DNA from: Alphaproteobacteria bacterium
Lineage (GTDB): Bacteria; Pseudomonadota; Alphaproteobacteria; Pelagibacterales; Pelagibacteraceae
Length of the DNA stretch: 64,000 nt
NCBI GenBank assembly: GCA_016870175.1
Contig: VGCG01000002.1
Span: forward strand, 1 to 64,000
Direction of reading: 5' to 3'
Shown: one piece after another, positions 20,623-63,928 of the stretch
Numbering within the stretch: position 1 is the first letter of the stretch
How the letters are laid out: every line of letters begins with the position of its first letter
The notes under the pieces: generated by a model
What the model saw: only the letters and a program-made list of their open reading frames with translations
What the model was told of the DNA's origin: nothing
Database searches by the model: none
Translations under genes and position numbers: made by a program

Positions 20623-22776
20623 TTAAACTATACCAAGATGTTTTTTTCTTTTATCCACCCAAGTTCTAATTAAATTATCAAATATAAGACCTATGAAAGC
20701 AACACAAACGCCCAGTAGTAATCCAATACCTGCACCCTTTTTATCTGATAATGCTTTTAAAATATATTGTCCCAAGTCTTCAGTTCCAATAAAAGCTCCT
20801 ATAATTACCATAAATAAAGCAAATACAATTGTTTGATTTAAACCAAGCATCATGTGAGGAAAAGCTAAAGGAAATTCAATTTTTAACAATCTTTGTATTT
20901 TCGTTACACCAGACATTGAAGCCACATCATGTAAAACTGTTGGAACACTTCTCAATCCCTCTATCGTGTACCTTACTGCGGGGATAGTTGCATAAACTAT
21001 CACTGCAATAAGGACCGACGTATCGGTTATTCCAAAAAGCATCATTACTGGTATCAAATAGACAAATGAAGGGAATGTTTGAAAAATATCACAGACATTT
21101 AACATAAATCTCATAGTATGTTTGTTTTGAAAGCATAAAGTTCCAACAATTAATCCAATTACACAAGACACAATAACTCCAAAAACTGTCATGTATGTTG
21201 TAACTAAAGCTCTATCCCACCACGGGCTTAATGCTATAAATAAACTTAATCCACCGACAATTAACGCCGAACGAATTCCCCCAATTATATAACCTGATCC
21301 AATAATAAGTACTAAAGTAGCAACAGCTGGCATTCTTAAAAATAAGGCCCTCATTGGTTGAAGTACCTCTGTTATCAACCAAGTATTAAATAATTTTAAA
21401 CTATAAAAGAAAGTATCAAAAATCCAATCAACTCCCTTATTCCAGAAACCTGCAGTTGAGATTCCTTTATTGTGCGGAATCTCAAATAAATAATTAAAAC
21501 CATTAATTAAATAAAAAGATCCAATATAAGCAATTATTACTCCAATTATTACTGACGCAGCAAAAAACAAAGTATTTTTATAACGTTCAAAAAATGTTAA
21601 TTTACCAAAATAATCAATTTGTTTATTTGCCCAGGCTAAAGACATTTTGTCTAGCAGTATTGCAATCAAGCTAATACACAAACCAGCTTCTAACGCGACT
21701 CCAATATTTAGTTGGTTTAGAGCAAGCAGTAGATTCCAACCCAGCCCTTTAGCACCAATGTAAGCTGCAATAACAGCCATTGAAAAACATACCATGATAA
21801 CCTGGTTCACTCCAATTAAAATGTCTCTTCTTGCAGTTGGAATTAATACTTTAAACATAAGTTGAAAATTATTGCATCCGCTCATTTTTCCAGCTTCTAT
21901 AACCTCCAAAGGTACCGATCTTAAACCCAACAAAGTTAAAAGTATCATTGGTGGAATAGCAACAATCATTGTAATAATAACTGCAGCGTGATCACCATTT
22001 CCGAACAAAACCAATGCAGGCACAAGCACTGAATATTGAGGCATAGTTTGCATTACCATTATTATTGGATTCAAAAATTTCTCAACAGTTTTACTCTTGA
22101 AGGCCATAATGCCTAAGATTAATCCAAAAATAAAAGAAAGCGGTGTTGCTACTAATATAAAAGAAAGAGTTTGCATTGAAGGTTCCCACTGACCAAAAAT
22201 CGAAACGTAAATCATTGTTACACCTGCAAAAATTCCGAGACCTTTGCCGCCTAATTTATAGCCTAATATTGCAGTGCCTGCCGTAACTACTGTCCAAGGC
22301 AAACCTGGAAGTTTTGCCCATGGGTTTGCATCTAACCATTCCCAACTTGTAAACGCAACAATGGTTTCAACACCGCCCAATGGAATTTCTCTAATCAATT
22401 CAATGACAAATGTCATAAACGCACTTATACTTCTTGTTAAAATAAGTATTAAAGGCTGTTTTTTAAATTCCTGAAGGTCTTCATTCCAAACTTCTATTGG
22501 CATCCATTCTTCCAATAAAAAAACTATAGAGTCATTTACCCAAATAGGTAGCCAACCAAGTAATGGAGGAAGCCTCCAAAAGTTATCAAAGGGATAATAT
22601 CTAACTTCTGCGCCTAATACTGTGAAGCTAACTTGGTTTGGATCTTTAACAAATTCTGCCTGAGCTCTAATAAATTTATAAGTTTCTGGAACATCAATTG
22701 CAAAACATAAGAAAAAAAATACAATAAATAAAAATAACCATTGAAATAGATTTGGATATTTTTTTAATAATTCCAT
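20623..22776 (-). CDS. tmoW: ABC transporter permease (TmoW/ProW-like), two permease domains fused
   Basis: This inner-membrane permease is 717 aa because it carries two BPD_transp_1 domains in one chain. Each has an EAA-type coupling loop: VIEAGKMSGCNNFQLMFKV in the first half and LHDVASMSGVTKIQRLLKI in the second. It belongs to the ProW/OpuAB group that imports glycine betaine and related methylated amines. The ATPase gene lies 3 bp upstream and the binding protein is encoded in the same direction about 2.7 kb upstream. Because a Tdm-type TMAO demethylase is divergent from the binding-protein gene, I infer that TMAO is a substrate, probably along with glycine betaine. Confidence 0.85.
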   Translation of the reverse strand: MELLKKYPNLFQWLFLFIVFFFLCFAIDVPETYKFIRAQAEFVKDPNQVSFTVLGAEVRYYPFDNFWRLPPLLGWLPIWVNDSIVFLLEEWMPIEVWNEDLQEFKKQPLILILTRSISAFMTFVIELIREIPLGGVETIVAFTSWEWLDANPWAKLPGLPWTVVTAGTAILGYKLGGKGLGIFAGVTMIYVSIFGQWEPSMQTLSFILVATPLSFIFGLILGIMAFKSKTVEKFLNPIIMVMQTMPQYSVLVPALVLFGNGDHAAVIITMIVAIPPMILLTLLGLRSVPLEVIEAGKMSGCNNFQLMFKVLIPTARRDILIGVNQVIMVCFSMAVIAAYIGAKGLGWNLLLALNQLNIGVALEAGLCISLIAILLDKMSLAWANKQIDYFGKLTFFERYKNTLFFAASVIIGVIIAYIGSFYLINGFNYLFEIPHNKGISTAGFWNKGVDWIFDTFFYSLKLFNTWLITEVLQPMRALFLRMPAVATLVLIIGSGYIIGGIRSALIVGGLSLFIALSPWWDRALVTTYMTVFGVIVSCVIGLIVGTLCFQNKHTMRFMLNVCDIFQTFPSFVYLIPVMMLFGITDTSVLIAVIVYATIPAVRYTIEGLRSVPTVLHDVASMSGVTKIQRLLKIEFPLAFPHMMLGLNQTIVFALFMVIIGAFIGTEDLGQYILKALSDKKGAGIGLLLGVCVAFIGLIFDNLIRTWVDKRKKHLGIV

Positions 22777-22779
22777 ATT

Positions 22780-23811
22780 TTAAATATTTTTTCTTTTTCC
22801 TCCAAAAACAGTGCTAATAATTTTTGAAGGATTAACTGTTCCAACAATTTGATTACTATCGTCAACTACAGCAATATTTTTATCTTGAGATAAAATTTTA
22901 TTAGCCACATGACCAATTATAGAATCTTTTGAAACTTTAAAATCGCTTAAATTTTCATTACTTATTTCGTCCATAACGTCCTCAATTTTTAAGACTTTTT
23001 CTCTGGGAACCTCCTCAGTAAACCTTCTTACATAATCAGTTTCTGGATTTAAAACAATATTTGCAGGTGTATCCAACTGTTCAATAATGCCATCTTTCAT
23101 TATAATTATACGATCTGCAAGTTTTAAAGCTTCGTCAAAATCATGTGTTATAAACATGATCGTTTTTTGTAATTTTAATTGCAGTCTTAAAAATTCATCC
23201 TGCATTTCTTTTCGTATCAAAGGATCTAATGCTGAAAAAGGTTCATCTAAAAACCAAATATCAGGTTCTACAGCTAAAGATCGAGCAATACCTACTCTTT
23301 GTTGTTGTCCACCAGAAAGCTCTCTTGGAAAATAGTTTTCTCTTCCATCAAGGCCAACAAGTTTAATCATTTCCATAGCCTTTTTGATAGTTTCTTGTGT
23401 TTTAATTCCTTTAATTTGAAGTGGAAAAGCAATATTTTCTACAACTGTTTTGTGTGGAAGCAAAGCAAAACTTTGAAAAACCATTCCCATTTTATTTCTT
23501 CTAAGATCAATTAGTTGTTTGTTACTTAATGAGAGCAAATCTACACCTTCAATAAAAATTTTCCCTGCAGTTGCTTCTGTCAATCTAGAAATGCATCTTA
23601 ATAACGTAGATTTACCTGAGCCTGATAAGCCCATAACAACCAATATTTCTCCTTTTGAAACCTCGAAAGAGGCGTTATTAACACCTACGATACATCCTTT
23701 ATCTTGAAATGTTTTTGCGTCCACATTACCATTTGCTTCTTGAAGCATTTTTTGAGCTTTTGCTCCAAAAATTTTATAAACTGAGTCGCATTTAATCACC
23801 ACTTTTGACAT
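22780..23811 (-). CDS. tmoV: ABC transporter ATP-binding protein (TmoV/ProV-like)
   Basis: It powers betaine/TMAO uptake with the downstream permease. The 343-aa protein has Walker A GLSGSGKST at 61-69, the Q-loop in MVFQSFALLPH, signature LSGGQQQR at 165-172 and the Walker B plus D-loop in WFLDEPFSALD. A C-terminal region (about 255-343) contains CBS-like sequence (IEDVMDEI, IAVVDDSNQIVGTV), typical of ProV/OpuAA ATPases that sense osmotic state. The N-terminal extension (FGAKAQKMLQE) is also typical of ProV. The gap to the permease is 3 bp. Confidence 0.93.
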   Translation of the reverse strand: MSKVVIKCDSVYKIFGAKAQKMLQEANGNVDAKTFQDKGCIVGVNNASFEVSKGEILVVMGLSGSGKSTLLRCISRLTEATAGKIFIEGVDLLSLSNKQLIDLRRNKMGMVFQSFALLPHKTVVENIAFPLQIKGIKTQETIKKAMEMIKLVGLDGRENYFPRELSGGQQQRVGIARSLAVEPDIWFLDEPFSALDPLIRKEMQDEFLRLQLKLQKTIMFITHDFDEALKLADRIIIMKDGIIEQLDTPANIVLNPETDYVRRFTEEVPREKVLKIEDVMDEISNENLSDFKVSKDSIIGHVANKILSQDKNIAVVDDSNQIVGTVNPSKIISTVFGGKRKNI

Positions 23812-23881
23812 AATATTTAAAATTTTATACGAAATAAAAGTTAAAATACAGTTTTTAATTAGCTGTGTTTATATTTTATTT

Positions 23882-24433
23882 TTAAAAATTTTTAATAAAA
23901 TAAACTCTCGTATCAATTCCTGTGCTAAAAAAACTTAAAGCATCTCCACTCACTGTAATTGTTTCCTCTTTACCTTCAATGGTTCCTTTTAAAACATATC
24001 CAGCAACGCATTTTTTATTTTCATTATCCCATTTTACAAATGTTTCCTTAACTTGATTTCCATTTCCAGTATATATTTGATAAGCTTTTAAATTGATTAA
24101 ATTAGCACCCATTATTGTACGTTGAGTAATCAGTTTTGTTGCATTACAAACTTTTTCATAAAGCTCGTCAGATAATTTAAAACCATTGGTTCCATCATAA
24201 GTTACTAAAATACCCGTAGGCAGATTTGATAACAAATCACTGAGTTTTCTTTTTTCAGCAATTTTTTCTTCTTCTCTTTTCATTTTGGCAGTTAGATCTT
24301 TATCATGACCGAAAAAAATATTAAAAATTGCAAAGGATAAAATTACAACAATTGTTACAACAACAAGACCCACTAACTGTCTAGCTGGCTCGGGTAATTC
24401 CTTTAATTTACTTGAATATTTGTCTTGCAACAT
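23882..24433 (-). CDS. Single-pass membrane protein of unknown function
   Basis: I prefer the ATG at 24433 (MLQDKYSSKLKEL), 8 bp after the MORN gene stop, over one at 24469 that would overlap that gene by 28 bp. The 183-aa protein has one transmembrane segment at about residues 21-41, a charged helical stretch rich in Lys/Glu (AKMKREEEKIAEKRK), and a C-terminal domain of roughly 110 residues with two Cys, presumably outside the cytoplasm. No family is recognised. It sits between the ATPase and binding-protein genes of the transporter. Confidence 0.65.
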   Translation of the reverse strand: MLQDKYSSKLKELPEPARQLVGLVVVTIVVILSFAIFNIFFGHDKDLTAKMKREEEKIAEKRKLSDLLSNLPTGILVTYDGTNGFKLSDELYEKVCNATKLITQRTIMGANLINLKAYQIYTGNGNQVKETFVKWDNENKKCVAGYVLKGTIEGKEETITVSGDALSFFSTGIDTRVYFIKNF

Positions 24434-24441
24434 TATTTCAA

Positions 24442-24819
24442 CTATTCTTGCAACTGGCCATTTTTCCAAATTCCAGTTTTTTCTTTTCCATCAGCCCAAG
24501 TAAAAGTTCCTTTTCCATTCATAAAACCATTAGCCCATTCGCCATTGTAAGTTGAACCATCTGGGAAAATTAAAACACCTTGACCACTCCAAAAACTATT
24601 TTCAAATTCACCCTTGTAAATATATCCATTTGGCCAAGTTTCAGTCCCTTGTCCATGCTTTTTTGTTCCAACCCACTCTCCTTCGTAAATTGTTTTATCT
24701 GTATATACCCATTTTCCAAAACCATTATCACAATTTCCCTCTTGGCATCCTGTGACAGCAGCTATGGTCTGATAGGTAAATAAAAAATTAAGAGTTACTA
24801 AGATAATATATTTTTTCAT
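24442..24819 (-). CDS. Secreted MORN-repeat protein
   Basis: The 125-aa protein has a signal peptide (MKKYIILVTLNFLFTYQTIA) and then about four MORN repeats of the form Y.GEW..G..HGQGT, for example YEGEWVGTKKHGQGTETW, YKGEFENSFWSGQGVLIF and YNGEWANGFMNGKGTFTW. MORN repeats bind lipids or proteins in eukaryotes; bacterial roles are poorly known. It is co-directional with the transporter genes and lies just upstream of the single-pass membrane protein, with which it may act. Confidence 0.8.
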   Translation of the reverse strand: MKKYIILVTLNFLFTYQTIAAVTGCQEGNCDNGFGKWVYTDKTIYEGEWVGTKKHGQGTETWPNGYIYKGEFENSFWSGQGVLIFPDGSTYNGEWANGFMNGKGTFTWADGKEKTGIWKNGQLQE

Positions 24820-24862
24820 TTTTTTATCTTATATTATATTCAACTAATATTTTATTATAATA

Positions 24863-25324
24863 TTAAATTTGACTCTCATATTTTCTGCATAGATAAAAAT
24901 AAATATCCTTTTCAAATTCATCACTTTTTAAATATTGTGTAATTTCGTGAATTAATTCACCTGTTTTTCTATCTATTATTGCAGACTCTGAGTAATTTTT
25001 TATTTTATCAGTAGCCTTAAAAAAAACTATGTCTTTATTTAAAATTTTGATATCAAGCTTTTCTTTGTTAGATATGAATGATGACAATCCGTTAATTAAA
25101 AGCGTATCTGGTGGTTTTGCATCAATTTCAAATTTATCTAAATTTTTATTATTTAAATCTTTAGCTAAAAAAGTTTTATAATTATATTCTGAATTTTTAA
25201 GTATTTTTTTTTCTAATTTGCATGTAAAGCTTAGTTTAATATTTTCTTGAACATCAACATTTTTTGCAAAAGATAAAGTAAAAAATAATAAACTAAGAGA
25301 TACATACAAAAAATACTTTATCAT
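24863..25324 (-). CDS. Exported protein of unknown function
   Basis: The 153-aa protein has a clear signal peptide (hydrophobic core, likely cleavage after LSFA near residue 20). The mature part is Lys/Asp-rich with two Cys (one near residue 35, one close to the end), compatible with a periplasmic disulfide-linked fold. A central IIDRKTGELIHEI strand resembles small proteins that measure 'conversion' or lipocalin-like sheets, but no family can be named. A terminator for the upstream binding-protein gene lies just before it, so it likely has its own promoter. Confidence 0.6.
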   Translation of the reverse strand: MIKYFLYVSLSLLFFTLSFAKNVDVQENIKLSFTCKLEKKILKNSEYNYKTFLAKDLNNKNLDKFEIDAKPPDTLLINGLSSFISNKEKLDIKILNKDIVFFKATDKIKNYSESAIIDRKTGELIHEITQYLKSDEFEKDIYFYLCRKYESQI

Positions 25325-25365
25325 ATATTAATTTCTATTTTTTTTTGCTCACTTTTAAGAACTTT

Positions 25366-25410
25366 AAAAAAAAATCTCCCCCTAACTATTTTAGGTTAGG
25401 GAGAGATTTA
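25366..25410 (-). terminator. Intrinsic terminator after the binding-protein gene
   Basis: A strong inverted repeat pairs aaatctcccc-ctaac (from about 25372) with gttagg-gagagattt (to 25409) around a short T-rich loop. On the minus strand it is followed by a run of T (the A tract at 25366-25374 on the plus strand). It lies 21 bp beyond the stop of tmoX and should insulate it from the three small genes and the rest of the transporter operon. Confidence 0.88.
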
Positions 25411-25430
25411 AACTTTTTTAATTTGAGTCT

Positions 25431-26375
25431 TTATTTAGTCCAAGGCTCCCAAACATTTTTATTATCAGCTAACCATTTTTTAGCTGCATCTTGATGCGTC
25501 ATTTTTCCGATATCAACTAATTTTGCCATCGCACCAATTTGAGCTGTAGTAAATGATACTTGCTTAAACATTGCAGCTGCTTTTGGATGTGTTTTTGGAA
25601 ACTCCGCATTTACGGCTTTTTTCAAATAACCATCTGGTGATCCACATTTTCCGTCACCACCATCTGCTGGTCTGCAACCAGGTGTATATGGAGGCCACTC
25701 TATAAATGTGAAACCATCAGCGTCAGTAAAGTTGGGTGTCCAATTGAAAATGATTGTTCCTCTTCCCTCTTTTTCAGCGGCTACCAATTCTGCCCAAAGT
25801 GCCTCTGCAGTTCCAGCAAATTTAACTGTCCATAGATCTGATAGTTCTAATGCTTCAAATCTTTGTGGCATTAAATCTCCATGCCAATTTTGTGGTCCTT
25901 CTAAAATCTGCCCTTTTCCACCTGAATCAGGAGTTACAAAGTTTTTTGCACAATCTGGATTTTTCAGAGCAGTCCAATCTGGAAGGCCAGGACATAATCC
26001 TTTTTCAACAACCCAATTTGGATATCCTAAGTCCTCAAGTGTTCTTGCTTCGTGATCACCCCAATCCAGTATTCCACCTTTTTCAAGAGCCGTAGAGAAT
26101 GAATGTCCAAAAGTTCCTTCCCAAACTTCGTGAGATATTGTTACGTCGCCAAGTCTTATAGACTCATACACTGCTTGTGTGTCAGCTGGAACGTATTTTA
26201 CTGTATTTCCCATACTTTCAAAAATCCCACCAAGAACGTATGCTGAAACCACTTGGCTTGACCAGTTGTGTGTTGGGATAATGATAGGTTTTTTGCTATC
26301 CGCGGAATTAGCAATTCCCACAAAACTTACTGCAGAGATTACTAAAGCAGACAACAATGATATTATTTGTTTCAT
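25431..26375 (-). CDS. tmoX: Periplasmic TMAO/glycine betaine-binding protein (TmoX/ProX-like)
   Basis: The 314-aa protein has a signal peptide (cleavage near residue 24, IANS-ADSKK) and the type II periplasmic-binding fold of ProX/OpuAC. Aromatic residues suited to a cation-pi box for trimethylammonium are frequent (THNWSSQVV, HEVWEGTFGH, IFNWTPNF, FIEWPPYTP). A Cys-rich loop (CRPADGGDGKCGSP) is present. It is divergent from the tdm gene by 111 bp and has its own strong terminator, allowing higher expression than the permease. Substrate range (TMAO, glycine betaine or both) is inferred from context; SAR11 homologues have been reported to be multifunctional. Confidence 0.88.
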   Translation of the reverse strand: MKQIISLLSALVISAVSFVGIANSADSKKPIIIPTHNWSSQVVSAYVLGGIFESMGNTVKYVPADTQAVYESIRLGDVTISHEVWEGTFGHSFSTALEKGGILDWGDHEARTLEDLGYPNWVVEKGLCPGLPDWTALKNPDCAKNFVTPDSGGKGQILEGPQNWHGDLMPQRFEALELSDLWTVKFAGTAEALWAELVAAEKEGRGTIIFNWTPNFTDADGFTFIEWPPYTPGCRPADGGDGKCGSPDGYLKKAVNAEFPKTHPKAAAMFKQVSFTTAQIGAMAKLVDIGKMTHQDAAKKWLADNKNVWEPWTK

Positions 26376-26486: not shown

Positions 26487-28820
26487 TTGAAAAACTCTCA
26501 AACAAGCAAAAATATAAAAAATCCAGGACTAAGAACACTACCACCTGGAGTTGAAAGATATTTTGTTAAGGGCGGAGGTTTATCTGTTATCCAAGTTGCC
26601 CCAGATGATCAAATTGAAATTATTAATAATGAGGGAAAACAAATTTGTGAAATAATTGTTTTTAATTTTAAAGGAAAATCAGATTTATCTATTTTAAATT
26701 TAAAAGAAAATGCAAATGGCGAGTTTTCAAAAAAAACAATTCACAAAGATGAAAAAATTGCAAAATTATTTAAGAAAAAAAACTTAATTTTAGATCAAGC
26801 AAAATCCTCAATAATTTTTGATCAAGATTGTTTAATGGGCGAACGTGTTGTGCTTAAATCAAAAGACGATTGTTTAGTAATGATTGCAGCACCAGGTGAT
26901 GCGATGAATGTGCACAATCAAAATCCACCAACTGACTTAACTGTTTTTTTAAATAAAGCTAAATTTGAAGAAAATGAAGAACAGTTTATTTTGCCAGATC
27001 CCTTAGACGATCCAATAATTGAGCAACTTATCAAAAGACGAACTGCAGAAACTTATTCTGTTAAAGCTGGAGAGTATATTCAAATTATTGATCCAGCTGG
27101 ACGACAGTGTTCAGATTTTTTAGCTTTTGATACCCGTAAATTAAATGAAGGCATTGAAAGTTTTATAGATGATAAAACTACAAGAACCTTTATGGGTAGT
27201 GCTTATCCAGGCCCAGGTTTGTTTTCAAAGTTCTATGACAGTAACCACGAAGCAATGATCGAAGTTATAAGGGACACTGTTGGTCGCCACGATACTTTTA
27301 ATCTTGCATGCACCTCTAAATATTATGAGGATATGGGTTATATGGGCCATATCAATTGCACTGATAATTTTAATAAAGGCTTAGAAAAATATGATATTAA
27401 TTCAAGAAAAAGTTGGTCCGCTATAAATCTTTTTTTTAATACTGCTATAAGTGAAAATAATGTTGCTTCTTTTGACGAGCCTTGGTCGAGACCAGGCGAT
27501 TACATTCTATTTAGAGCCTTGAAAGATCTAACATGTATATCATCTGCTTGTCCCTGTGATATTGACCCTGCAAATGGATGGAACCCAACAGATATATTTG
27601 TTAGAACTTACCCTAAAGAAAAAAAATACACAAAAGCTGTAGCATTTAGAATGAAAACAGACTCTGAACCAAAATTAACCCAGGAAACAGGTTTTCATAA
27701 GAAAACTTCTGAGCTCACTAGAAACTTTATTGAGTATAGAGGTTTTTGGCTTGCAAATAACTTTACCAATTCAGGCACGATCAAAGAATATATAGCATGT
27801 AGAGAAAATGCAATTATAACAGATTTATCACCCCTTAGAAAGTTTGAAGTTTTGGGACCTGATGCTGAAAATTTAATGCAATATACCTTAACTAGAGATA
27901 TAAAAAAACTTTCGACTGGTGACATTGTTTATAGCGCGATGTGTTATGAAAATGGGACAATGCTTGATGATGGTACAGTATTTAAATTAGGCCAAGATAA
28001 TTTTAGATGGATTGGTGGAGATGAGTACAGCGGCGAATGGCTAAAAGAGCAAGCTAAAAAAAAGAATTACAAAGTTTGGGTTAAATCTTCAACTGATCAA
28101 ATTCATAATATTGCAATTCAAGGACCTAATAGTAGAAAAATTTTAGAAAAAATTATTTGGACTGGTCCAAAACAAGCTTCGATGAACGAATTACAGTGGT
28201 TTAAATTTTCTATAGCTAGGATAGAAACTGACACTGGGACTCCTATAATTGTATCAAGGACCGGATATACAGGTGAACTTGGATATGAAATATGGTGTCA
28301 TCCAAAAGATGCTTGTGTTGTTTGGGATAAAGTTTGGGAAGCAGGAAAAAAATACAACATTACTCCACTTGGGTTAGAAGCTTTAGACATGGTTCGAATT
28401 GAAGCGGGTCTAATTTTTTATGGTTATGAATTTAATGATCAAACAGATCCTTTTGAGGCGGGAATTGGTTTTACTGTGCCACTTAAAACAAAAGAAGACG
28501 AATTTATCGGCAAAGAGGAATTAATTAAGAGAAAAGCAAACCCACAAAAAAAACTTGTTGGATTAGAATTAATTGGTCATGAACCAGCTAAACACGGTGA
28601 TAGTGTTCATTATGGTAAAGCTCAAATAGGAGTTATCACTAGTGGCATGCTTTCACCTAAGCTTGGAAAAAATATTGCTCTTTGTAGAATAGACGTTAAA
28701 TATTCAAATATTAATACTGAAATAGAAGTGGGCAAGTTAGATGGGCATCAAAAAAGAATTGCTGCTAAAGTTGTTGCTTTTCCATTTTACGATCCTATGA
28801 AATCTAGAGTTAGAGCTTAA
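26487..28820 (+). CDS. tdm: Trimethylamine N-oxide demethylase (DUF1989-GcvT fusion)
   Basis: Tdm converts TMAO to dimethylamine and formaldehyde, with a folate-binding domain that can capture the one-carbon unit. The 777-aa protein has an N-terminal DUF1989-like segment (residues 15-170), the main DUF1989 domain (about 180-390) and a C-terminal GCV_T domain (about 435-770; SRTGYTGELGYEIW, GLEALDMVRIEAG). Cys291, Cys355 and Cys357 have the same 64- and 2-residue spacing as the Zn-binding cysteines that I recall for Methylocella Tdm (279, 343, 345). The start is TTG (no usable ATG nearby). Divergent from tmoX and coupled to the next gene by TAATG. The architecture plus context makes this a strong call, though activity is not proven. 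Confidence 0.9.
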   Translation: MKNSQTSKNIKNPGLRTLPPGVERYFVKGGGLSVIQVAPDDQIEIINNEGKQICEIIVFNFKGKSDLSILNLKENANGEFSKKTIHKDEKIAKLFKKKNLILDQAKSSIIFDQDCLMGERVVLKSKDDCLVMIAAPGDAMNVHNQNPPTDLTVFLNKAKFEENEEQFILPDPLDDPIIEQLIKRRTAETYSVKAGEYIQIIDPAGRQCSDFLAFDTRKLNEGIESFIDDKTTRTFMGSAYPGPGLFSKFYDSNHEAMIEVIRDTVGRHDTFNLACTSKYYEDMGYMGHINCTDNFNKGLEKYDINSRKSWSAINLFFNTAISENNVASFDEPWSRPGDYILFRALKDLTCISSACPCDIDPANGWNPTDIFVRTYPKEKKYTKAVAFRMKTDSEPKLTQETGFHKKTSELTRNFIEYRGFWLANNFTNSGTIKEYIACRENAIITDLSPLRKFEVLGPDAENLMQYTLTRDIKKLSTGDIVYSAMCYENGTMLDDGTVFKLGQDNFRWIGGDEYSGEWLKEQAKKKNYKVWVKSSTDQIHNIAIQGPNSRKILEKIIWTGPKQASMNELQWFKFSIARIETDTGTPIIVSRTGYTGELGYEIWCHPKDACVVWDKVWEAGKKYNITPLGLEALDMVRIEAGLIFYGYEFNDQTDPFEAGIGFTVPLKTKEDEFIGKEELIKRKANPQKKLVGLELIGHEPAKHGDSVHYGKAQIGVITSGMLSPKLGKNIALCRIDVKYSNINTEIEVGKLDGHQKRIAAKVVAFPFYDPMKSRVRA

Positions 28821-52524: not shown

Positions 52525-53268
52525 TTATTTATATTTAGCCATTGTGCTAATGGCCAAGATTAAATTTGGATCAATAAATAATTTTGAAGATCTTGACTCA
52601 TTATAGGATTTAAAGGCAAAAATTGCGATTGGTAATTCTGTGCAGCCTAAAATAATTTTTGAGCATTTTTTTTTAATTAAGTAATTTACGGCTGGCTGGA
52701 TATTGAGTGCGGCAGCTCTAACATCGCCCATTTTTACATTTATTATTGCTTTATTAACATTTTGTTTTTGAATTTTATCGGTTGTCGTAACTATATTGTA
52801 ATCTTTATCAAAAAAATTGTTATAAATGCGTGTTTTTAAAGTACCCTCAGTTGCTAACAAGCCAATGGTAGAATTTTTTTTTACTTTTTTTTTCATAAAT
52901 TTAAATACCTCTTCAGGCATGTTTAAAATGGGAATATTGATTTTCTTTTGTAAATCATCATACCAATAATGAGCTGTATTGCATGGAATGACGATAAATT
53001 TACAATTATTTTTTTGAAGCAATCTGCAACCTTTAAGCAAACTTTTTAAAACTTTATTATATTTTTTATCGCTTGTACTATTATTAGATTTATTAGATAG
53101 ATGAGCAGTTTGAATTCCAATAGACTCAGGTCTGCCAGGTATATTGGATTTATTATAAAGAATAAACAAAGGGTAATCTTGATCAAGTTTTCCTCTATTC
53201 AAATAAGTTAACTTGTTGCAGAAATCTAGTCCTGCCTGAGTACCCATGCCTCCAAGGATGCCTATCAT
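52525..53268 (-). CDS. Aspartate/glutamate racemase family protein
   Basis: The 247-aa protein has the family N-terminus MIGILGGMGTQAGLDF, the first catalytic Cys region VIPCNTAHYWYDDLQ and the second LGCTELPIAIF. Both Cys residues for two-base racemisation are present. It is more like aspartate racemase than MurI. Members also act on other small dicarboxylates or hydantoins, so substrate is uncertain. It lies 21 bp from the cupin start side and may be co-transcribed with it. Confidence 0.85.
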   Translation of the reverse strand: MIGILGGMGTQAGLDFCNKLTYLNRGKLDQDYPLFILYNKSNIPGRPESIGIQTAHLSNKSNNSTSDKKYNKVLKSLLKGCRLLQKNNCKFIVIPCNTAHYWYDDLQKKINIPILNMPEEVFKFMKKKVKKNSTIGLLATEGTLKTRIYNNFFDKDYNIVTTTDKIQKQNVNKAIINVKMGDVRAAALNIQPAVNYLIKKKCSKIILGCTELPIAIFAFKSYNESRSSKLFIDPNLILAISTMAKYK

Positions 53269-53289: not shown

Positions 53290-53637
53290 TTATATTGATT
53301 TGTTGATACCTCTCATAAAAACTAAAATCAAACAACCTTTTCTTGAATATGAAAAGTGTTTTGTTCCAGGTTTAAAGGTAACAAAATCTCCTTTTTTAAA
53401 AATTTTTCCATCTTGATCCTGAAGTTGACCTTTCAGCATATAAAATTCTTCATATCCAGTATGTCTGTGCCGAAGGCTTTTAGTACCAGGTTCCATTTTT
53501 AAAACATAAGTTCCAAATCCACCATTTTTTTTATTATAACTAATTTTATACCAACTCATGCCAGGTATTTTTATGTTATAATTATCAAATGGTTTAAATT
53601 TGACCTCATTGATATTTATGATCTTTCTATTGTTCAT
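53290..53637 (-). CDS. Cupin-domain protein
   Basis: I chose the ATG at 53637 (MNNRKIININEVKF); an upstream ATG at 53691 would add 18 hydrophobic, Asn/Tyr-rich residues that do not look like a real N-terminus. The 115-aa protein has a full cupin pattern: SLRHRHTGYEEFYMLKG (His, His, Glu metal ligands) and FKPGTKHFSYS (second-motif His). It is a small metal-binding jelly roll of unknown substrate, upstream of the racemase gene on the same strand. Confidence 0.78.
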   Translation of the reverse strand: MNNRKIININEVKFKPFDNYNIKIPGMSWYKISYNKKNGGFGTYVLKMEPGTKSLRHRHTGYEEFYMLKGQLQDQDGKIFKKGDFVTFKPGTKHFSYSRKGCLILVFMRGINKSI

Positions 53638-56949: not shown

Positions 56950-58185
56950 TTATAACCAATCTTTTAATGCCATTTGCTTTTTTCCCAAATCAGATAAATC
57001 ATTAACTAAAGTTCTATTTTTATAATTAATTTCGTAATCCTCAGGGGCAAAATCAGATGGACTTTCACCTTTTAAGAATTTTTCAGCTTGTTTTTTTGCA
57101 TAACTTAAATTTTTTTCACAATACGGCATTGAACCAACATAGACAACGTTAGAATAATTATTACCTGTATGAACATCTTCAACGGCATGAATAACGTCAG
57201 GATGCCACCAAATTGTATCACCAGGATTCATTTTTGGAATTGATACTAATCCCTCTAAAAGTGATGAGTGGTATTTTTGATTAACTGCTAAAGCTCTTCC
57301 GCTTTTAGAGTCACAAAGTTCATGTTCGGGAACATCATCAAGCAAAGCTCTGGTTAAAACATAAGCCATGCCTTTAGCTATTGGTATTAATTGAAGTGTT
57401 CCATCATTAGGACCTTGTTCTGTTAAAGCTGTCCAACCTTGAAAAGTTCGAAATGTGTTACTTACGGCTGGAGATTTAATTAAATCGGTTTTATCACGAT
57501 ACATCGCGTTAAAAGGATCGTACTTTTCAAATTCATCAGCAAAAATTTTTTCATATATTTTTTGATAATTTTTTTCAATCCATCTTTCAATTGAACCTGC
57601 GTCACAATGTGGAGATAATCCTAAAGTAGAGTCACCTGGTTGTCGACGTCTAACACGATCTGCATATATCAATTCTTTGTTAGGATCAAAAACTTGATAA
57701 TTATCAAATTTATAATTCCAAATATTATTTATAAATTTTTTTACTTTATCAAGCTCATTTGATTGTCTAATTTCCGTTTGAGTTTTTGACCAATAAAGAC
57801 CAAATATCTGAGGTTTACCTGATTTTAATTCACTAAAATAATTATCAAGATGTGATTTTTTAATTTGGTCTTGATAGTAGTGATTCGACTCAATATAATT
57901 TTCTAAATCTTGATTCCACTTAATAATTTGATCTTTTTTAAAAACGTTTCTAACTATTAAACAGCCCCTTTTTTTTATTTGATTAATATTTTTTTCATTA
58001 TCATTACTTAGATCATTAAAATTAATTTCTGGTATTATTGATAAGTTTTTTTCTTGAAACTTTTTTATTTCATTGACTTCCGATTTAATAAAATCAGAAA
58101 TTTTTTCAAAATTTTTTTTATAGTCTTTTGACTTACTTCTTAGGATTTTTTTACTTTTAATTATTTCAGTATCAAAATTATTCAT
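56950..58185 (-). CDS. DUF1479-family Fe(II)/2-oxoglutarate dioxygenase-like protein
   Basis: The 411-aa protein carries family text FRTFQGWTALTEQGPNDGTLQLIP and a non-haem iron site: His and Asp in LSPHCDAGSIERW, and the distal His in WWHPDVIHAVED, with an Arg-type 2-oxoglutarate contact likely beyond. DUF1479 enzymes are poorly characterised oxygenases (YbiU-like). It lies 40 bp downstream of the folate demethylase gene on the same strand, so it probably oxidises an intermediate of that pathway. That role is inferred. Confidence 0.8.
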   Translation of the reverse strand: MNNFDTEIIKSKKILRSKSKDYKKNFEKISDFIKSEVNEIKKFQEKNLSIIPEINFNDLSNDNEKNINQIKKRGCLIVRNVFKKDQIIKWNQDLENYIESNHYYQDQIKKSHLDNYFSELKSGKPQIFGLYWSKTQTEIRQSNELDKVKKFINNIWNYKFDNYQVFDPNKELIYADRVRRRQPGDSTLGLSPHCDAGSIERWIEKNYQKIYEKIFADEFEKYDPFNAMYRDKTDLIKSPAVSNTFRTFQGWTALTEQGPNDGTLQLIPIAKGMAYVLTRALLDDVPEHELCDSKSGRALAVNQKYHSSLLEGLVSIPKMNPGDTIWWHPDVIHAVEDVHTGNNYSNVVYVGSMPYCEKNLSYAKKQAEKFLKGESPSDFAPEDYEINYKNRTLVNDLSDLGKKQMALKDWL

Positions 58186-58225
58186 TTTTTTATAGGGGAG
58201 AACATAATCTCCCCTGAAATTTAAT

Positions 58226-59584
58226 CTAGTCTTTTATAATTTCCCTAGTATTTGCGTTGTGTGACTCAGTAAATGGAATATTCACAACTACAGCATCAAC
58301 TGGTTTACCTGCTTTATTTGAATATTTTGCTGGTAAATGAACTTTAAATTTAGTTCCAATTTTTCCTTCAGGAAAACCATTTTTGTTTAAGGTTCCATCA
58401 TAAGGCACAAACCCCATAGCAATATTTTTCTCTTTTTCAGGATGATACCAAGGAGAAGTAAGGAAACCAACTGGTTTGCCTCCACTAGCTTTTGATACTA
58501 ACCAAAAATCAGGCGCATATTCCGTTATTGGTTTTCCACCTAATTCAAAACCAACTAACTGCAATTTATATGGCTTTTTTCCCGCTTTAAGTTGAGCTCC
58601 CATTTTTTCAAGAGCTGCTTTACCCACATAATTGCCTTTTTTCTTCCATTCACCTTTGCCAGATAATGAAACCTGGTATCCCAAGTTACATTGGAAGGGA
58701 TTGTGCTCATTATCCATGTCTTGACCCCAAGAAAGAATTCCGGCTTGAACTCTTCTATGATGTGCAGGTGCTATAACTTTTAAATTATATTTTTTTCCTG
58801 CTTTTAGAACTGCGTTCCACATATCATCTGCATAAAGAGTTGCATTTTTTAGATAAATTTCATAGCCAGCTTCTCCAGAGAAACCAGATTGTGAAATCAC
58901 ACAATCTCTTCCACCGATTTTAGCTTTCGCCAAACCGTAGAAAGGCATATTATCCACATCGACCTGTTTACCAATTAAGTCTTTCATCAATGCTTTAGAT
59001 TTAGGTCCTTGAATTTGCACTGGACAAGCGTCTATCTCATCGATTTCAACTTTGTATTTCCTGTTAGAATTTACCCCTTGCAAGTAAAAACCTATATCAC
59101 TATCTGAAAGACTAAACCAAAATTCATCTTTTGAAATTCTTAAAAGAATAGGATCATTAAGAATTCCACCTTTATAATTACAAAGAATAACATATCTTGC
59201 TCTCATAGGTGAAATTTTAGTAGCATCTCTTGTTATAACATAGTCTACAAACTTTTCTGCATCTGGACCTTTAACTCTTATCTGTCTTTCAACAGCGACA
59301 TTCCACATGGTAACATCATTTTTGATTGATTTGTACTCAGCCATTGCTCCACCCTTTTTAGGTTTGATATAGCCTCTGGGATGATAAATCCGATTGTAAA
59401 CTTCTGCTCTCCAACAACCACTTTTCATAGACAAATGCCAATAAGGTGATTTTCTTATTCTAGTAGAAATTAGAAGTTCTACTTTCGTAGGACCACTTTG
59501 TCTTAAGTTATAAGGCACGTGTCGATCTGATTGATCAACTGACGTTTCATGTTTTGATTTACTGTAATTAAACTCATTTGGCAT
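58226..59584 (-). CDS. Folate-dependent demethylase of the GcvT/DmdA/LigM family
   Basis: The 452-aa protein has a GCV_T fold: YKSIKNDVTMWNVAVERQIRVKG, VQIQGPKSKALMKDLIG, SGFSGEAGYEIYL, AGILSWGQDMDNEHNPFQ and a C-terminal domain with GFLTSPWYHPEKEKNIAMG. DmdA is about 370 aa, and aryl O-demethylases LigM/DesA about 460-470, so this is closer in length to the latter. Its start overlaps the MetF-like gene by 11 bp, the arrangement expected when the product is methyl-THF. It is probably not the true DMSP demethylase; the methyl donor is unknown. Confidence 0.78.
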   Translation of the reverse strand: MPNEFNYSKSKHETSVDQSDRHVPYNLRQSGPTKVELLISTRIRKSPYWHLSMKSGCWRAEVYNRIYHPRGYIKPKKGGAMAEYKSIKNDVTMWNVAVERQIRVKGPDAEKFVDYVITRDATKISPMRARYVILCNYKGGILNDPILLRISKDEFWFSLSDSDIGFYLQGVNSNRKYKVEIDEIDACPVQIQGPKSKALMKDLIGKQVDVDNMPFYGLAKAKIGGRDCVISQSGFSGEAGYEIYLKNATLYADDMWNAVLKAGKKYNLKVIAPAHHRRVQAGILSWGQDMDNEHNPFQCNLGYQVSLSGKGEWKKKGNYVGKAALEKMGAQLKAGKKPYKLQLVGFELGGKPITEYAPDFWLVSKASGGKPVGFLTSPWYHPEKEKNIAMGFVPYDGTLNKNGFPEGKIGTKFKVHLPAKYSNKAGKPVDAVVVNIPFTESHNANTREIIKD

Positions 59585-60305
59585 AATTATTCTCCTTTAA
59601 CCATTTGTTTGTTTCTATTAAGCCGCCAAATGAATAAATGTGAAAGTTAGAAGAATAATTTTTAACTCTTTTAATTATATCATTTGGATCTTTGAATTTT
59701 AATAAATCAAGTGTTTTGCTTAAATTTGACTTAAGAAAATTAATGGAATTTTTTGCTCCAATTATATTAGCAAATTTAATTAAACTTGACATTTTTAGAG
59801 GTCCGGTAATTCCAACATGAACCGGTACTGATTGTTTGGAAATAAAATCTATAATAAGACTACTATCTAATAACCATTGAGTGACAATATAATCAGCATA
59901 AGGTTTTTTATCTATCATAGCTTTCGTTAATTTTTCGTCTGATATATCAGGACTTCCTTCAGGGTGTCCAGCAATACCTATTTTAATTTTATCAAAAAAA
60001 CCTGTTTCCAAAATTTGGATCGAACTATCAAATTTTCCAACTGGCTTCAAACTACCCCCGATAACAAGTACCTGCTTTGTACCGCCATCTTTGCATCTAT
60101 TAATATAATCTTTAAGTTGTAATTCATTAACTATTGATCTCGCAGGAAAGTGAGGTACTGGATTAAAGCCTTTTTTTGCTAGTTCCTCGGATTTTTTAGC
60201 AGTCTCCTTATAATCACCTCCTGGTAACATTGTTATATAGACGTCTTTTAACGATGGAAGACTATTAAGATCCGTATTTGGTCCTATTTCTATTGAAAAA
60301 TGCAT
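59574..60305 (-). CDS. metF: Methylenetetrahydrofolate reductase-like protein
   Basis: The 243-aa protein resembles the MetF barrel: YITMLPGGDY, HFPARSIV in place of the usual HLTC strand, GIAGHPEGSP and YIVTQWLLDSS. It is shorter than typical MetF (about 290-300 aa). Paired with a methyl-transferring GcvT-family enzyme it would oxidise methyl-THF to methylene-THF rather than serve methionine synthesis; this is inference from the overlap of the two genes. Its start lies 102 bp from the chosen start of the divergent Rieske gene. Confidence 0.82.
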   Translation of the reverse strand: MHFSIEIGPNTDLNSLPSLKDVYITMLPGGDYKETAKKSEELAKKGFNPVPHFPARSIVNELQLKDYINRCKDGGTKQVLVIGGSLKPVGKFDSSIQILETGFFDKIKIGIAGHPEGSPDISDEKLTKAMIDKKPYADYIVTQWLLDSSLIIDFISKQSVPVHVGITGPLKMSSLIKFANIIGAKNSINFLKSNLSKTLDLLKFKDPNDIIKRVKNYSSNFHIYSFGGLIETNKWLKENNYAK

Positions 60306-60407
60306 TTGTTCCGATCATTATCTTATTTAAAAAAGCTGTCAAAGAAATTCAGAATTAGTACAACTAAAATTCTTGCCAAAAGTTTTACCAGTGATATTTT
60401 TTTTACA

Positions 60408-61604
60408 ATGGATAAAGCATCTAAAACTTTAAAAATTTCAGATATTCTTGATATTGAGAAAATAAAGACAGTTAATCATTCGATTCAAAAAGCGCATGGC
60501 TTACCAAATGAATGTTACACAAAATCCGAATATTTAAATTTTGAAAAAGAAAAAATATTTTGTGATAATTGGACTGTGATTGGTACCGCAAGCTCAATAC
60601 CAGATATTGGTGATGCTAAAATATACAGTTTGTTGGGAATTCCTATAATTATTATAAGAGATAAATCTAATAATATAAAAGTTTTTCACAACGTATGTAG
60701 TCATAGAGGAGTCAGGCTTGTTAATGAATCTTGTAAATTAAAAAATATTATAAGATGTCCTTATCACTCGTGGACTTACGATTTTTCAGGAAAATTAATT
60801 GCAACACCTCATATAGGTGGAATGAACATACATGAAGCAAAAGGTTTTGACAGGGAAAAAAGCAATCTTAAAGAAATAAGATCTCATGTATGGATGGACC
60901 TAATATTTATTAATATTAATAAAAATGCAAAAAGTTTTGATCAAAGTATTAAATCTTTAAATGATAGATGGTCTAAATTTATTAGTGAGGAGGATAAAAA
61001 GTTAGTAAGGCACGCAAAAGATTTCGGATATTTTAATATGGAAGTAAATACTAATTGGAAGCTTGCTATAGAAAATTTTTGCGAAAGTTATCATTTACCC
61101 TGGGTCCATCCTGAATTAAATAAAGTTTCAAACATAAAAGACCATTATCATATTGAGGATTCCTTTGGAACATACTCTGGTCAAGGAAGTTATAAATATG
61201 TTCAACAATTTTATCATAATAAAAAATTCGCAACATTTCCCAATTGGCCAAGTAATTTAACAAATAATGCAGAGTACGTTTCTTTGTTTCCTAACGTAAT
61301 GCTTGGAATTCATATCGATCATTTTTATGCATTTTGGTTAGAGCCATTAGATAATAATAAAACAAGGGAACATTTTGAGATGTATTATGTTGGCAGCGAA
61401 AGTGCTGAGAGTGATGATTTCAAAGAAATGAGAGAAAAAAATTTTAAGTTTTGGCAAAATGTTATGAATGAGGATATTTTTGCAATAGAAAGTATGCAGA
61501 GAGGAAGAAGTTCACCAGTATATAATGGAGGAAATTTTTCTCCAATAATGGATACACCAACTTTAATGTTTCACAGGTGGGTAGCAAATAGCTTAACTAA
61601 ATAA
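60408..61604 (+). CDS. Rieske non-haem iron oxygenase, quaternary-amine type
   Basis: I chose the ATG at 60408 (MDKASKTLKISDIL; 398 aa). A longer frame from 60300 would overlap the divergent metF-like start and add 36 basic residues unlike the family. The Rieske cluster ligands are Cys97, His99, Cys117 and His120. The mononuclear iron site has Glu226, His229 and His234 in ENFCESYHLPWVH. The bridging residue is Glu, as in carnitine oxygenase CntA, instead of the usual Asp. Length and style match GbcA/stachydrine-demethylase-like alpha subunits, suggesting a betaine substrate. The reductase partner is not in the window. Confidence 0.85.
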   Translation: MDKASKTLKISDILDIEKIKTVNHSIQKAHGLPNECYTKSEYLNFEKEKIFCDNWTVIGTASSIPDIGDAKIYSLLGIPIIIIRDKSNNIKVFHNVCSHRGVRLVNESCKLKNIIRCPYHSWTYDFSGKLIATPHIGGMNIHEAKGFDREKSNLKEIRSHVWMDLIFININKNAKSFDQSIKSLNDRWSKFISEEDKKLVRHAKDFGYFNMEVNTNWKLAIENFCESYHLPWVHPELNKVSNIKDHYHIEDSFGTYSGQGSYKYVQQFYHNKKFATFPNWPSNLTNNAEYVSLFPNVMLGIHIDHFYAFWLEPLDNNKTREHFEMYYVGSESAESDDFKEMREKNFKFWQNVMNEDIFAIESMQRGRSSPVYNGGNFSPIMDTPTLMFHRWVANSLTK

Positions 61605-61673
61605 GACAAGTAAATACTATCATTATGAGAATAATAAATTTAAAAAAATTAATAAAAATATAAAAAATTAAAC

Positions 61674-62573
61674 ATGGAGTTAAACGGTATCTATACCGCG
61701 CTTATTACGCCTTTTAATAAAGACAATTCAGTAAACAAAAATGCTTACGAACAAGTAATTAATAAAGTAATACAAGATGAAGTTCATGGGGTTGTTGTAG
61801 CCGGATCTACTGGGGAAAATTATTCTCAAACATTAGAGGAAAGAATTAATCTTATCGAACTAACCAGTAAAATAATTAATAAACGAGTTAGCCTCATAGT
61901 AGGTATTGGTGGTGTCACTAGAACTGAAGACTCTATAGTTTTAGGTAAAAAAGCAAAATTAGTTGGTGCCGATGCTATAATGATTTCTTCACCACCATAC
62001 GCAGTTCCAACCAGCAAGGAAAATGCAATTAATTCATTAATAATAGATAATGCTATTGATCTACCAATATTACTTTACAACTATCCAGGTAGAACGGGTG
62101 TTCACATGGATAAAGAATATCTTGATATTATAAGTGTATCAAATAATTTTCGCTGGATAAAAGAAAGCTCGGGTGAATTAAGTAGAATTGATTTTTTAAT
62201 TAAAAATTACCCTAATATTAAATTATGTTGTGGAATGGATGATCAGGCACTTGAATATTTTCAAGCAGGAGTAAAAAGCTGGGTTTGTGCAGGAAGTAAT
62301 TTTTCAGCAACAGCCCATTTAGCTTTATGGAAAAGTTTTGTTGTCGAAAAAAATTTAGAAAAAGCTAAAAAAATATGGAGTTCAATGCTACCTTTAATGA
62401 AGCAATTAGAACAGGGTGGAAAATTTATTCAATCAATAAAACACGGTGTAAGCATTACCGGAATTGATGCAGGCATTCCAAGATTACCATTGCAACCTTT
62501 AGATGATAATGAAAAAATTTTAATAGAAAAAATAATTACTAAGATGAATAATTCTATTAGAGAAATTAATTGA
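61674..62573 (+). CDS. DapA/NAL-family aldolase or dehydratase
   Basis: The 299-aa protein has Schiff-base Lys163 (WIKESSGELSRI), Tyr135 in YNYPGRTG, and GSTGENYSQTLEERINL near the N-terminus. This superfamily includes dihydrodipicolinate synthase, N-acetylneuraminate lyase, KDG aldolases and pyrroline-hydroxycarboxylate deaminase. Placement between a Rieske oxygenase and an FAD amine oxidoreductase, away from lysine genes, favours a catabolic role. DapA itself cannot be excluded from sequence alone. Confidence 0.8.
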   Translation: MELNGIYTALITPFNKDNSVNKNAYEQVINKVIQDEVHGVVVAGSTGENYSQTLEERINLIELTSKIINKRVSLIVGIGGVTRTEDSIVLGKKAKLVGADAIMISSPPYAVPTSKENAINSLIIDNAIDLPILLYNYPGRTGVHMDKEYLDIISVSNNFRWIKESSGELSRIDFLIKNYPNIKLCCGMDDQALEYFQAGVKSWVCAGSNFSATAHLALWKSFVVEKNLEKAKKIWSSMLPLMKQLEQGGKFIQSIKHGVSITGIDAGIPRLPLQPLDDNEKILIEKIITKMNNSIREIN

Positions 62574-63928
62574 TGTCTAAAGTTCATTTAGTAAAACGGT
62601 TACCAAAAGATCCTGGTCCTCCTGCGTGGAGAAGTATTATTCCAGATCAACCAAGATATCCTAAATTAGAAAATCAAATTATAACTGATTGGTTAGTCAT
62701 TGGAGCTGGTTTTGCTGGCTTATCTGCTTCAAGAAGATTATGTCAAATTACAAACGATGAAAAAATTACTTTAATAGAAGCTAGCGAGGTAGCCGCTGGA
62801 CCAGCGGGTCGAAACTCTGGTTTTATGATCGATTTACCTCACGAATTAGGTACAGGTACTTATAAAGATACCATTGAAAGAGATAAGCTTCATATCAAAT
62901 TAAATAGATACGCTATAGATTTTGCTCAGGACTCTGCAAAAGAATATTCAATGCCAGATGAAGCTGCAGAATTATCAGGTCGTATAAATGGGGTAGTTAA
63001 TGATAATGGTGAGAAACATAACTTAGAATTTGCTAGACATCTAGATAACCTGGGTGAAAAATATCAACATCTTACTTCTGGTGATATGAAAGATATTACA
63101 GGATCTACATTTTATAAAGGTGGATTGTTTTTACCAGGTTGTTTGATGATACAGCCAGCTCTTTATATAAGTAAACTTGCAGCTGGAATTTTTTTAAAAT
63201 TCAAAAATAGATTTAAAATTTATGAGCACTCACCAGCTATTAAATTAGAAAAAAATGGTGATAGTTGGATAGTAACAACTCCACAAGGATCTATTATTAC
63301 TAAAAAAATTATTATGGGAGTGAATGGCCACGTTGAGTCATTCGGTTTTTTTGAAAAACGTTTAATGCATGTTTTTACATATGCTTCAATGACCAAGAAA
63401 CTTACAACTAAGCAACAAAAAATTTTAGGAGGTAAACCTAGTTGGGGAATTATCCCCTCTAATCCAATGGGCTCAACATTAAGAAGAATAACAGGAATAA
63501 GTGGTGATAGAATTTTAATTCGTAATCGATGGACTTTTAACCCCTCAATTGAAGTTCCAGATAGTAATGTTGAAAAATTTGGTAAAGATCAAGATTTGAG
63601 TTTTAGAAAAAGGTTTCCAATGCTTAATGATGTGGAAATGGAATATAGATGGGGTGGTAGATTATGTTTATCTTTAAATTCAGTTCCAGCCTTTGGTGAA
63701 GTTGAAAAAAATTTATATTCGGCCTGTTGTCAGAATGGTATTGGAGCAGCAAAAGGAACTTTAGCTGGAATTGGTGCTGCTGAATTAGCCAGCAATATTC
63801 AATCAGTTATTGTTAAAGATATGCAGTCCTATGAACAACCAAAAAAATTACCACCAAAACCAATTTCTATTATAGGTGCGAATGCAATAATAAGCTGGAG
63901 AGAAATGATGGCAAAAGATGAATTATAA
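62573..63928 (+). CDS. FAD-dependent amine oxidoreductase (DAO family)
   Basis: I start it at the ATG at 62573 (TGATG overlap with the previous stop); a TTG at 62570 would add one residue. The 451-aa protein has WLVIGAGFAGLSASRRL, the PAGRNSGFMIDLPHE motif seen in the PuuB/OrdL-like group, and a C-terminal YRWGGRLCLSLNSVPAFGEVE segment. It probably oxidises a secondary amine or amino acid derivative such as an N-methylated imino acid. Translation is coupled to the DapA-family gene. Confidence 0.8.
   Translation: MSKVHLVKRLPKDPGPPAWRSIIPDQPRYPKLENQIITDWLVIGAGFAGLSASRRLCQITNDEKITLIEASEVAAGPAGRNSGFMIDLPHELGTGTYKDTIERDKLHIKLNRYAIDFAQDSAKEYSMPDEAAELSGRINGVVNDNGEKHNLEFARHLDNLGEKYQHLTSGDMKDITGSTFYKGGLFLPGCLMIQPALYISKLAAGIFLKFKNRFKIYEHSPAIKLEKNGDSWIVTTPQGSIITKKIIMGVNGHVESFGFFEKRLMHVFTYASMTKKLTTKQQKILGGKPSWGIIPSNPMGSTLRRITGISGDRILIRNRWTFNPSIEVPDSNVEKFGKDQDLSFRKRFPMLNDVEMEYRWGGRLCLSLNSVPAFGEVEKNLYSACCQNGIGAAKGTLAGIGAAELASNIQSVIVKDMQSYEQPKKLPPKPISIIGANAIISWREMMAKDEL

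Follow-up and report, generated by a model that had tools for sequence, protein, structure and literature searches.

The window, meaning the whole 64,000-base stretch of DNA analysed, comprises the first part of an 89,391-base contig from a genome of 960,826 bases (81 contigs, 82% complete), which we assign to SAR11 by its gene content. Six genes lie at the locus under study (Table 1), and the open reading frames, strands and enzyme classes given to them by a first-pass annotation have been confirmed through Pfam, NCBIfam and PDB matches. Two start sites have been corrected, with that of the FAD gene moved to 62573, where the ATG shares its A with the end of the DapA-family stop codon, and that of the Rieske gene probably to 60405. 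The Rieske frame is open from 60300, but several relatives have in-frame stops within 60300-60404 and most can be aligned only from about residue 36 of the window frame; the likely start is therefore the ATG at 60405, with the upstream stretch probably intergenic. The Rieske, DapA-family and FAD genes follow one another in that order on one strand, a 69-bp gap between the first two being followed by overlapping genes, while on the other strand the end of the MetF-like gene overlaps the start of the GcvT-like gene by 11 nt. A consensus promoter scan has returned 44 sites against 37 expected, and matches in the divergent region are at chance level.

Table 1. Genes and other features of the locus, in positions of the window, with the matches on which each is based.
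Positions	Strand	Feature	Basis
56950-58185	-	DUF1479/Gig2-like gene	Pfam PF07350, 418 bits; PDB 4rgk, 392 bits
58226-59584	-	GcvT/DmdA-like folate-dependent methyltransferase gene	GCV_T PF01571, 141 bits
59574-60305	-	MetF-like methylene-THF reductase gene	PDB 7xg9, E=1e-32; zero Pfam matches
60306-60404		Probable divergent promoter region	Between the MetF-like and Rieske genes
60405-61604	+	Rieske non-heme iron oxygenase alpha subunit gene, distantly CntA-like	PF00355 and PF00848; CntA 6y9c, 131 bits
61674-62573	+	DapA-family gene, predicted pyrroline-4-hydroxy-2-carboxylate deaminase	DHDPS family; HypD-like
62571-62575	+	TGATG stop/start overlap of the DapA-family and FAD genes	Read from sequence
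62573-63928	+	FAD amino-acid oxidase gene, predicted cis-4-hydroxy-D-proline oxidase	DAO family PF01266

The first-pass annotation had treated the six genes as a single demethylation module. A conserved unit of this kind is ruled out by synteny among 20 loci, all from the same genus as the window genome, which reveals genes with separate histories. The MetF-like and GcvT-like genes adjoin each other in 14 of these loci, at about 75-88% identity (about 80-88% for the GcvT-like protein). In seven of the 14 (L039-L044 and L048) a 294-aa permease-sized gene comes before the pair, with a gene of 336-356 aa ahead of it in turn, and in L043, the one scanned of the seven, genes for a permease and an OpuAC-type betaine-binding protein stand before the pair. 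The best PDB match of the GcvT-like protein is P. ubique DmdA (3tfh). Nonetheless, the protein scores 237 bits to the NCBIfam DmdA model, below the cut-off of 410, and is therefore not DmdA. Judged by family and adjacency, the same two genes were described side by side by Sun et al. (2011, PMC3160333) as metF (SAR11_1264) and a gcvT-like close relative of dmdA (SAR11_1265), the latter guessed by those authors to take off a second methyl group when DMSP is broken down. Methylated amino acids are candidate substrates of SAR11_1264/1265 to which the locus points, because betaine-type transporter genes adjoin the pair in relatives while its neighbour here is a hydroxyproline cassette.

The Rieske gene is found throughout the genus, in most cases with neither DapA nor the FAD enzyme, and usually lies opposite the MetF-GcvT pair at about 57-72% identity. 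Its neighbours are of two types: a small kinase with a nucleotidyltransferase-like gene, or a group comprising BHMT, a DMGDH-like protein, an arginase-family protein, a methyltransferase and an M24 protein. The Rieske gene is a long-standing resident of the locus with changing neighbours. Relatives of the DUF1479 gene have been detected in 36 of 250 genus genomes, and all copies listed outside its own genome lie on other contigs or at other positions; it is a roaming orphan, probably incidental to the module. Several further observations concern the surroundings of the locus in relatives. The M24 protein beside the Rieske gene (L043 10229-11461) scores 355 bits to the model of the DMSP lyase DddP, whose cut-off is 600, and proteins encoded nearby weakly resemble the halogenases HalD and WelO5 (L037 7689-8534; L043 16831-17682). 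The genus also has two BHMT types, about 48% identical, of which one adjoins the Rieske gene and the other lies elsewhere (L195-L197; G000:C3:15996-17042).

What is new at the locus is the DapA-family/FAD pair, the MetF-GcvT pair having been published in 2011. Placement of the DapA-family protein with those of hydroxyproline(-betaine) clusters, as first proposed, has been borne out by a tree of 37 proteins, in which it belongs to a clade of 22 (support 100/99) that includes proteins from clusters with HpbD, MttB and 4HypE. Biosynthetic lysine DapA forms a distinct clade (100/98), and the genome has its own dapA on contig C7, which scores 307 bits to the Pfam family; its product shares 45% identity with E. 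coli DapA, compared with 23% for the window protein. The possibility that the gene is a lysine biosynthesis dapA, and the only dapA of the genome, is ruled out on both counts. In the alignment, the Schiff-base Lys161 is kept together with Tyr133 and Arg138, Thr44 is replaced by Ser, and PYA or PYS takes the place of the YYN motif, as it does in Hpb-cluster proteins. Two contig ends of the window genome each carry part of another DapA-family gene, possibly a single split gene (L075 2-418; L074 1-597).

The FAD enzyme is 95% identical to its copy in G182, the closest sampled relative, otherwise about 30% identical to proteins within the order, and 40-52% identical to proteins of other Alphaproteobacteria and plasmids. 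An AF2 model (pLDDT 90) has glycine oxidase, L-amino acid deaminase and DMGDH as its nearest folds, with so many amino-acid oxidases matched that no single one is picked out. As for gene neighbourhoods, a KGSADH-type ALDH and/or MttB lies within 1.5 kb of the FAD relative in 11 of 14 loci, and 48 loci with FAD relatives from named genomes include the DapA family in 32, KGSADH-type enzymes in 31, ProV in 19, MttB in 18 and HpbD in seven. Four loci with FAD relatives (L135, L139, L143 and L144) also contain 4-hydroxyproline epimerases scoring 544-555 bits, above the NCBIfam cut-off of 376, while the protein in L160 is a trans-3-hydroxyproline dehydratase. Some other genomes also carry the DapA and FAD genes without a nearby KGSADH. 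A paralogue of the FAD enzyme at 30% identity, widespread in the genus, lies beside a 594-aa thiamine-enzyme-like gene (L073 9582-10796; L071 8104-9408).

The same enzyme classes are found in the hpb/hyp clusters of Rhodobacterales (Cereibacter sphaeroides 2.4.1 pB and Leisingera plasmids), whose DapA-family and FAD proteins are 49-50% and 43-47% identical to those of the window. In these clusters DapA, ALDH and FAD genes occur with HpbD and MttB, and with ProXWV in two of three, whereas the SAR11 locus lacks HpbD, MttB, KGSADH, ProXWV and GntR. The HpbD proteins have been identified through PDB entries 4e8g, 2pmq and 4h2h, which we take to be characterised hydroxyproline-betaine epimerases, and through an annotated hpbD at about 77%. 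The cluster ALDH has been called KGSADH from its cluster position, its best NCBIfam match being PuuC, below cut-off; both the KGSADH and the 4HypE functions in the clusters are putative, assigned by model or neighbourhood. Likeness extends to trans-4-hydroxyproline clusters composed of 4HypE, an oxidase, a DHDPS-family deaminase and an ALDH, as in Pseudomonas gingeri and Rhizobium relatives of the DapA-family/FAD pair adjoin a 4HypE scoring above its NCBIfam cut-off. The coordinates examined on S. meliloti pSymB, considered as a further reference, contained no hydroxyproline genes. A pathway of DAAO, DHDPS-family deaminase and ALDH has been described for t4Hyp/HypB (PMC4113996). Since the same trio serves clusters whose epimerase acts on free hydroxyproline, the FAD enzyme would most simply be a cis-4-hydroxy-D-proline oxidase. 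The first-pass view of this enzyme as belonging to a class used in hydroxyproline-betaine catabolism is upheld by relatives in such clusters, several of them beside HpbD or 4-hydroxyproline epimerase. Taking into account that FAD relatives adjoin the same DapA family, a KGSADH-type ALDH and HpbD, MttB or 4-hydroxyproline epimerase, the pair is most likely a pyrroline-hydroxycarboxylate deaminase and a cis-4-hydroxy-D-proline oxidase.

The pair is rare, having been seen in very few genomes of the genus, and the window copy is the sole DapA-family match at E<=1e-45 in 399 genus genomes. A DapA-family protein at 46% identity occurs in another genome of the genus (G154), where its neighbours are an ALDH at 57% and a cis-3-hydroxy-L-proline dehydratase that scores 533 bits against a cut-off of 500. 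In G182 the Rieske and FAD genes persist with only the last ~30 nt of DapA between them, and the DUF1479 gene is a 99-aa ORF with both ends remaining. This genome has lost the DapA-family gene and most of DUF1479 by internal deletion, and the arrangement is therefore older than the split of the two genomes; recent insertion of DapA in the window genome alone is ruled out by the remaining ~30 nt. As losses in one genome, these deletions bear little on function.

Other pathway parts expected by the first-pass annotation to the right of the window, namely an epimerase, a semialdehyde dehydrogenase and a transporter, were not found on extending the sequence in that direction. Unrelated genes do follow: to the right of the FAD gene lie a kinase, a nucleotidyltransferase-like gene, two small membrane proteins, others, a DMGDH-like gene at 67017 and further genes. 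Within the assembled genome (G000, 82% complete) there are no enolase-superfamily (PF13378) or proline-racemase-family (PF05544) genes, the latter a difference from the trans-4-hydroxyproline clusters with their 4HypE, and no ALDH is more than 34% identical to the cluster enzyme. The locus itself has no transporter gene.

The favoured reading, held with somewhat more confidence than doubt, is that a one-carbon locus of SAR11 has gained a partial hydroxyproline cassette. What has been computed is family membership together with motifs, gene order, the clade and the neighbourhoods of the cassette, while all substrates, direction and flux are what we infer. The MetF-like and GcvT-like proteins would perform folate-linked methyl removal, with the methyl group passing to THF and then being oxidised, and the divergent Rieske gene would encode a betaine-class oxygenase. 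The FAD enzyme would most likely convert cis-4-hydroxy-D-proline, or its N-methyl form, to pyrroline-4-hydroxy-2-carboxylate, which the DapA-family enzyme may dehydrate and deaminate through a Schiff base at Lys161, giving alpha-ketoglutarate semialdehyde. An unlinked aldehyde dehydrogenase would turn this product into alpha-ketoglutarate. It is plausible, by inference only, that the Rieske and/or folate enzymes feed the cassette by demethylating hydroxyproline betaine. The hydroxyproline proposal of the first-pass annotation has therefore stood for two of six genes, DapA-family and FAD, on family and neighbourhood, and has failed as regards the unity of the module, the betaine step being no more than plausible. 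Against the accompanying suggestion of an osmolyte route not yet assigned to SAR11, the MetF/GcvT-like pair was published in 2011 (PMC3160333), and a 2025 paper reports genes for deaminating hydroxyproline in coastal SAR11 genera (PMC12636525).

The motifs of the Rieske protein are intact (Rieske CxH...CxxH, His-His-Asp and the Glu bridge), and the closest solved structure is that of CntA. It is, like CntA and GbcA, a Rieske alpha subunit with Glu at the bridge position, although the window locus has no adjacent reductase gene. GbcA identity has been rejected (132 bits against an NCBIfam cut-off of 670), and the Rieske protein beside hpbD in Paracoccus reaches 489 bits to the same model. The protein is of neither the HpbB nor the GbcA type, with Rhodobacterales HpbB belonging to another Rieske subfamily, so that its role in demethylating a betaine is putative. 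The Rieske tree places it together with G182, G058 and family f2 (100/99), long branches leaving the wider placing unsure.

It is tentatively possible that the Rieske gene serves a different pathway, such as that of homarine or glycine betaine, and merely adjoins the hydroxyproline pair. Neighbours of the closest relatives outside SAR11, at 43-45%, are an ALDH, an FAD enzyme, a rubredoxin-reductase-type protein, a cupin and LysR, joined in some cases by BCCT, and this cluster may be the homarine operon; in Oceanisphaera and Cupriavidus the relatives lie in an ALDH-FAD-cupin-LysR neighbourhood of their own. Within SAR11, the Rieske gene of G058 and the f2 genomes, in the same subclade, adjoins BHMT-type and DMGDH-like genes. 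A 2026 report, cited in PMC13390433, ties N-methylglutamate dehydrogenase to homarine breakdown. The ALDH partner of these clusters is nonetheless absent from the window locus.

Unlikely, in our estimation, is a single SAR11 hydroxyproline-betaine pathway, in which the Rieske and folate enzymes would strip two N-methyls and the FAD and DapA-family enzymes would finish, the epimerase and dehydrogenase lying in the unassembled 18%. The same-strand order of the Rieske, DapA-family and FAD genes, with their short gap and overlap, is consistent with such a pathway, as are clusters elsewhere that join the DapA-ALDH-FAD trio with an HpbB-type Rieske gene. On Leisingera plasmids a 42% Rieske relative lies a few kb from an HpbD-DapA-ALDH-FAD cluster, but this gene has its own LysR and ALDH. 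The genus-wide occurrence of the Rieske and MetF-GcvT genes without the DapA-FAD pair argues against a single pathway, and so does the lack of an epimerase in the assembled genome. Quite unlikely, too, is the proposal that some SAR11 lineages join a SAR11-specific Rieske oxygenase and a folate demethylase pair with an imported hydroxyproline oxidase/deaminase for a proline-type betaine, unlike the HpbB/MttB routes of roseobacters. That the pair is a decaying remnant without function, rare and with its dehydrogenase gone, is very unlikely: its scarcity in the genus and the internal deletions in G182 fit decay, but both ORFs are full length, the DapA catalytic residues are kept and the FAD proteins of the two genomes share 95% identity.

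Read as a one-carbon locus with an added partial cassette, the locus shows streamlined ocean bacteria gaining and losing small catabolic add-ons at one spot. Elsewhere in the window, a TMAO demethylase Tdm is encoded at 26487-28820 (1165 bits, above the cut-off of 1100), accompanied at 20623-26375 by permease genes and one for an OpuAC-type binding protein. An Asp/Glu racemase-family protein at 52525-53268 scores 152 bits to the cysteate racemase CuyB (cut-off 190), with a cupin gene at 53290.
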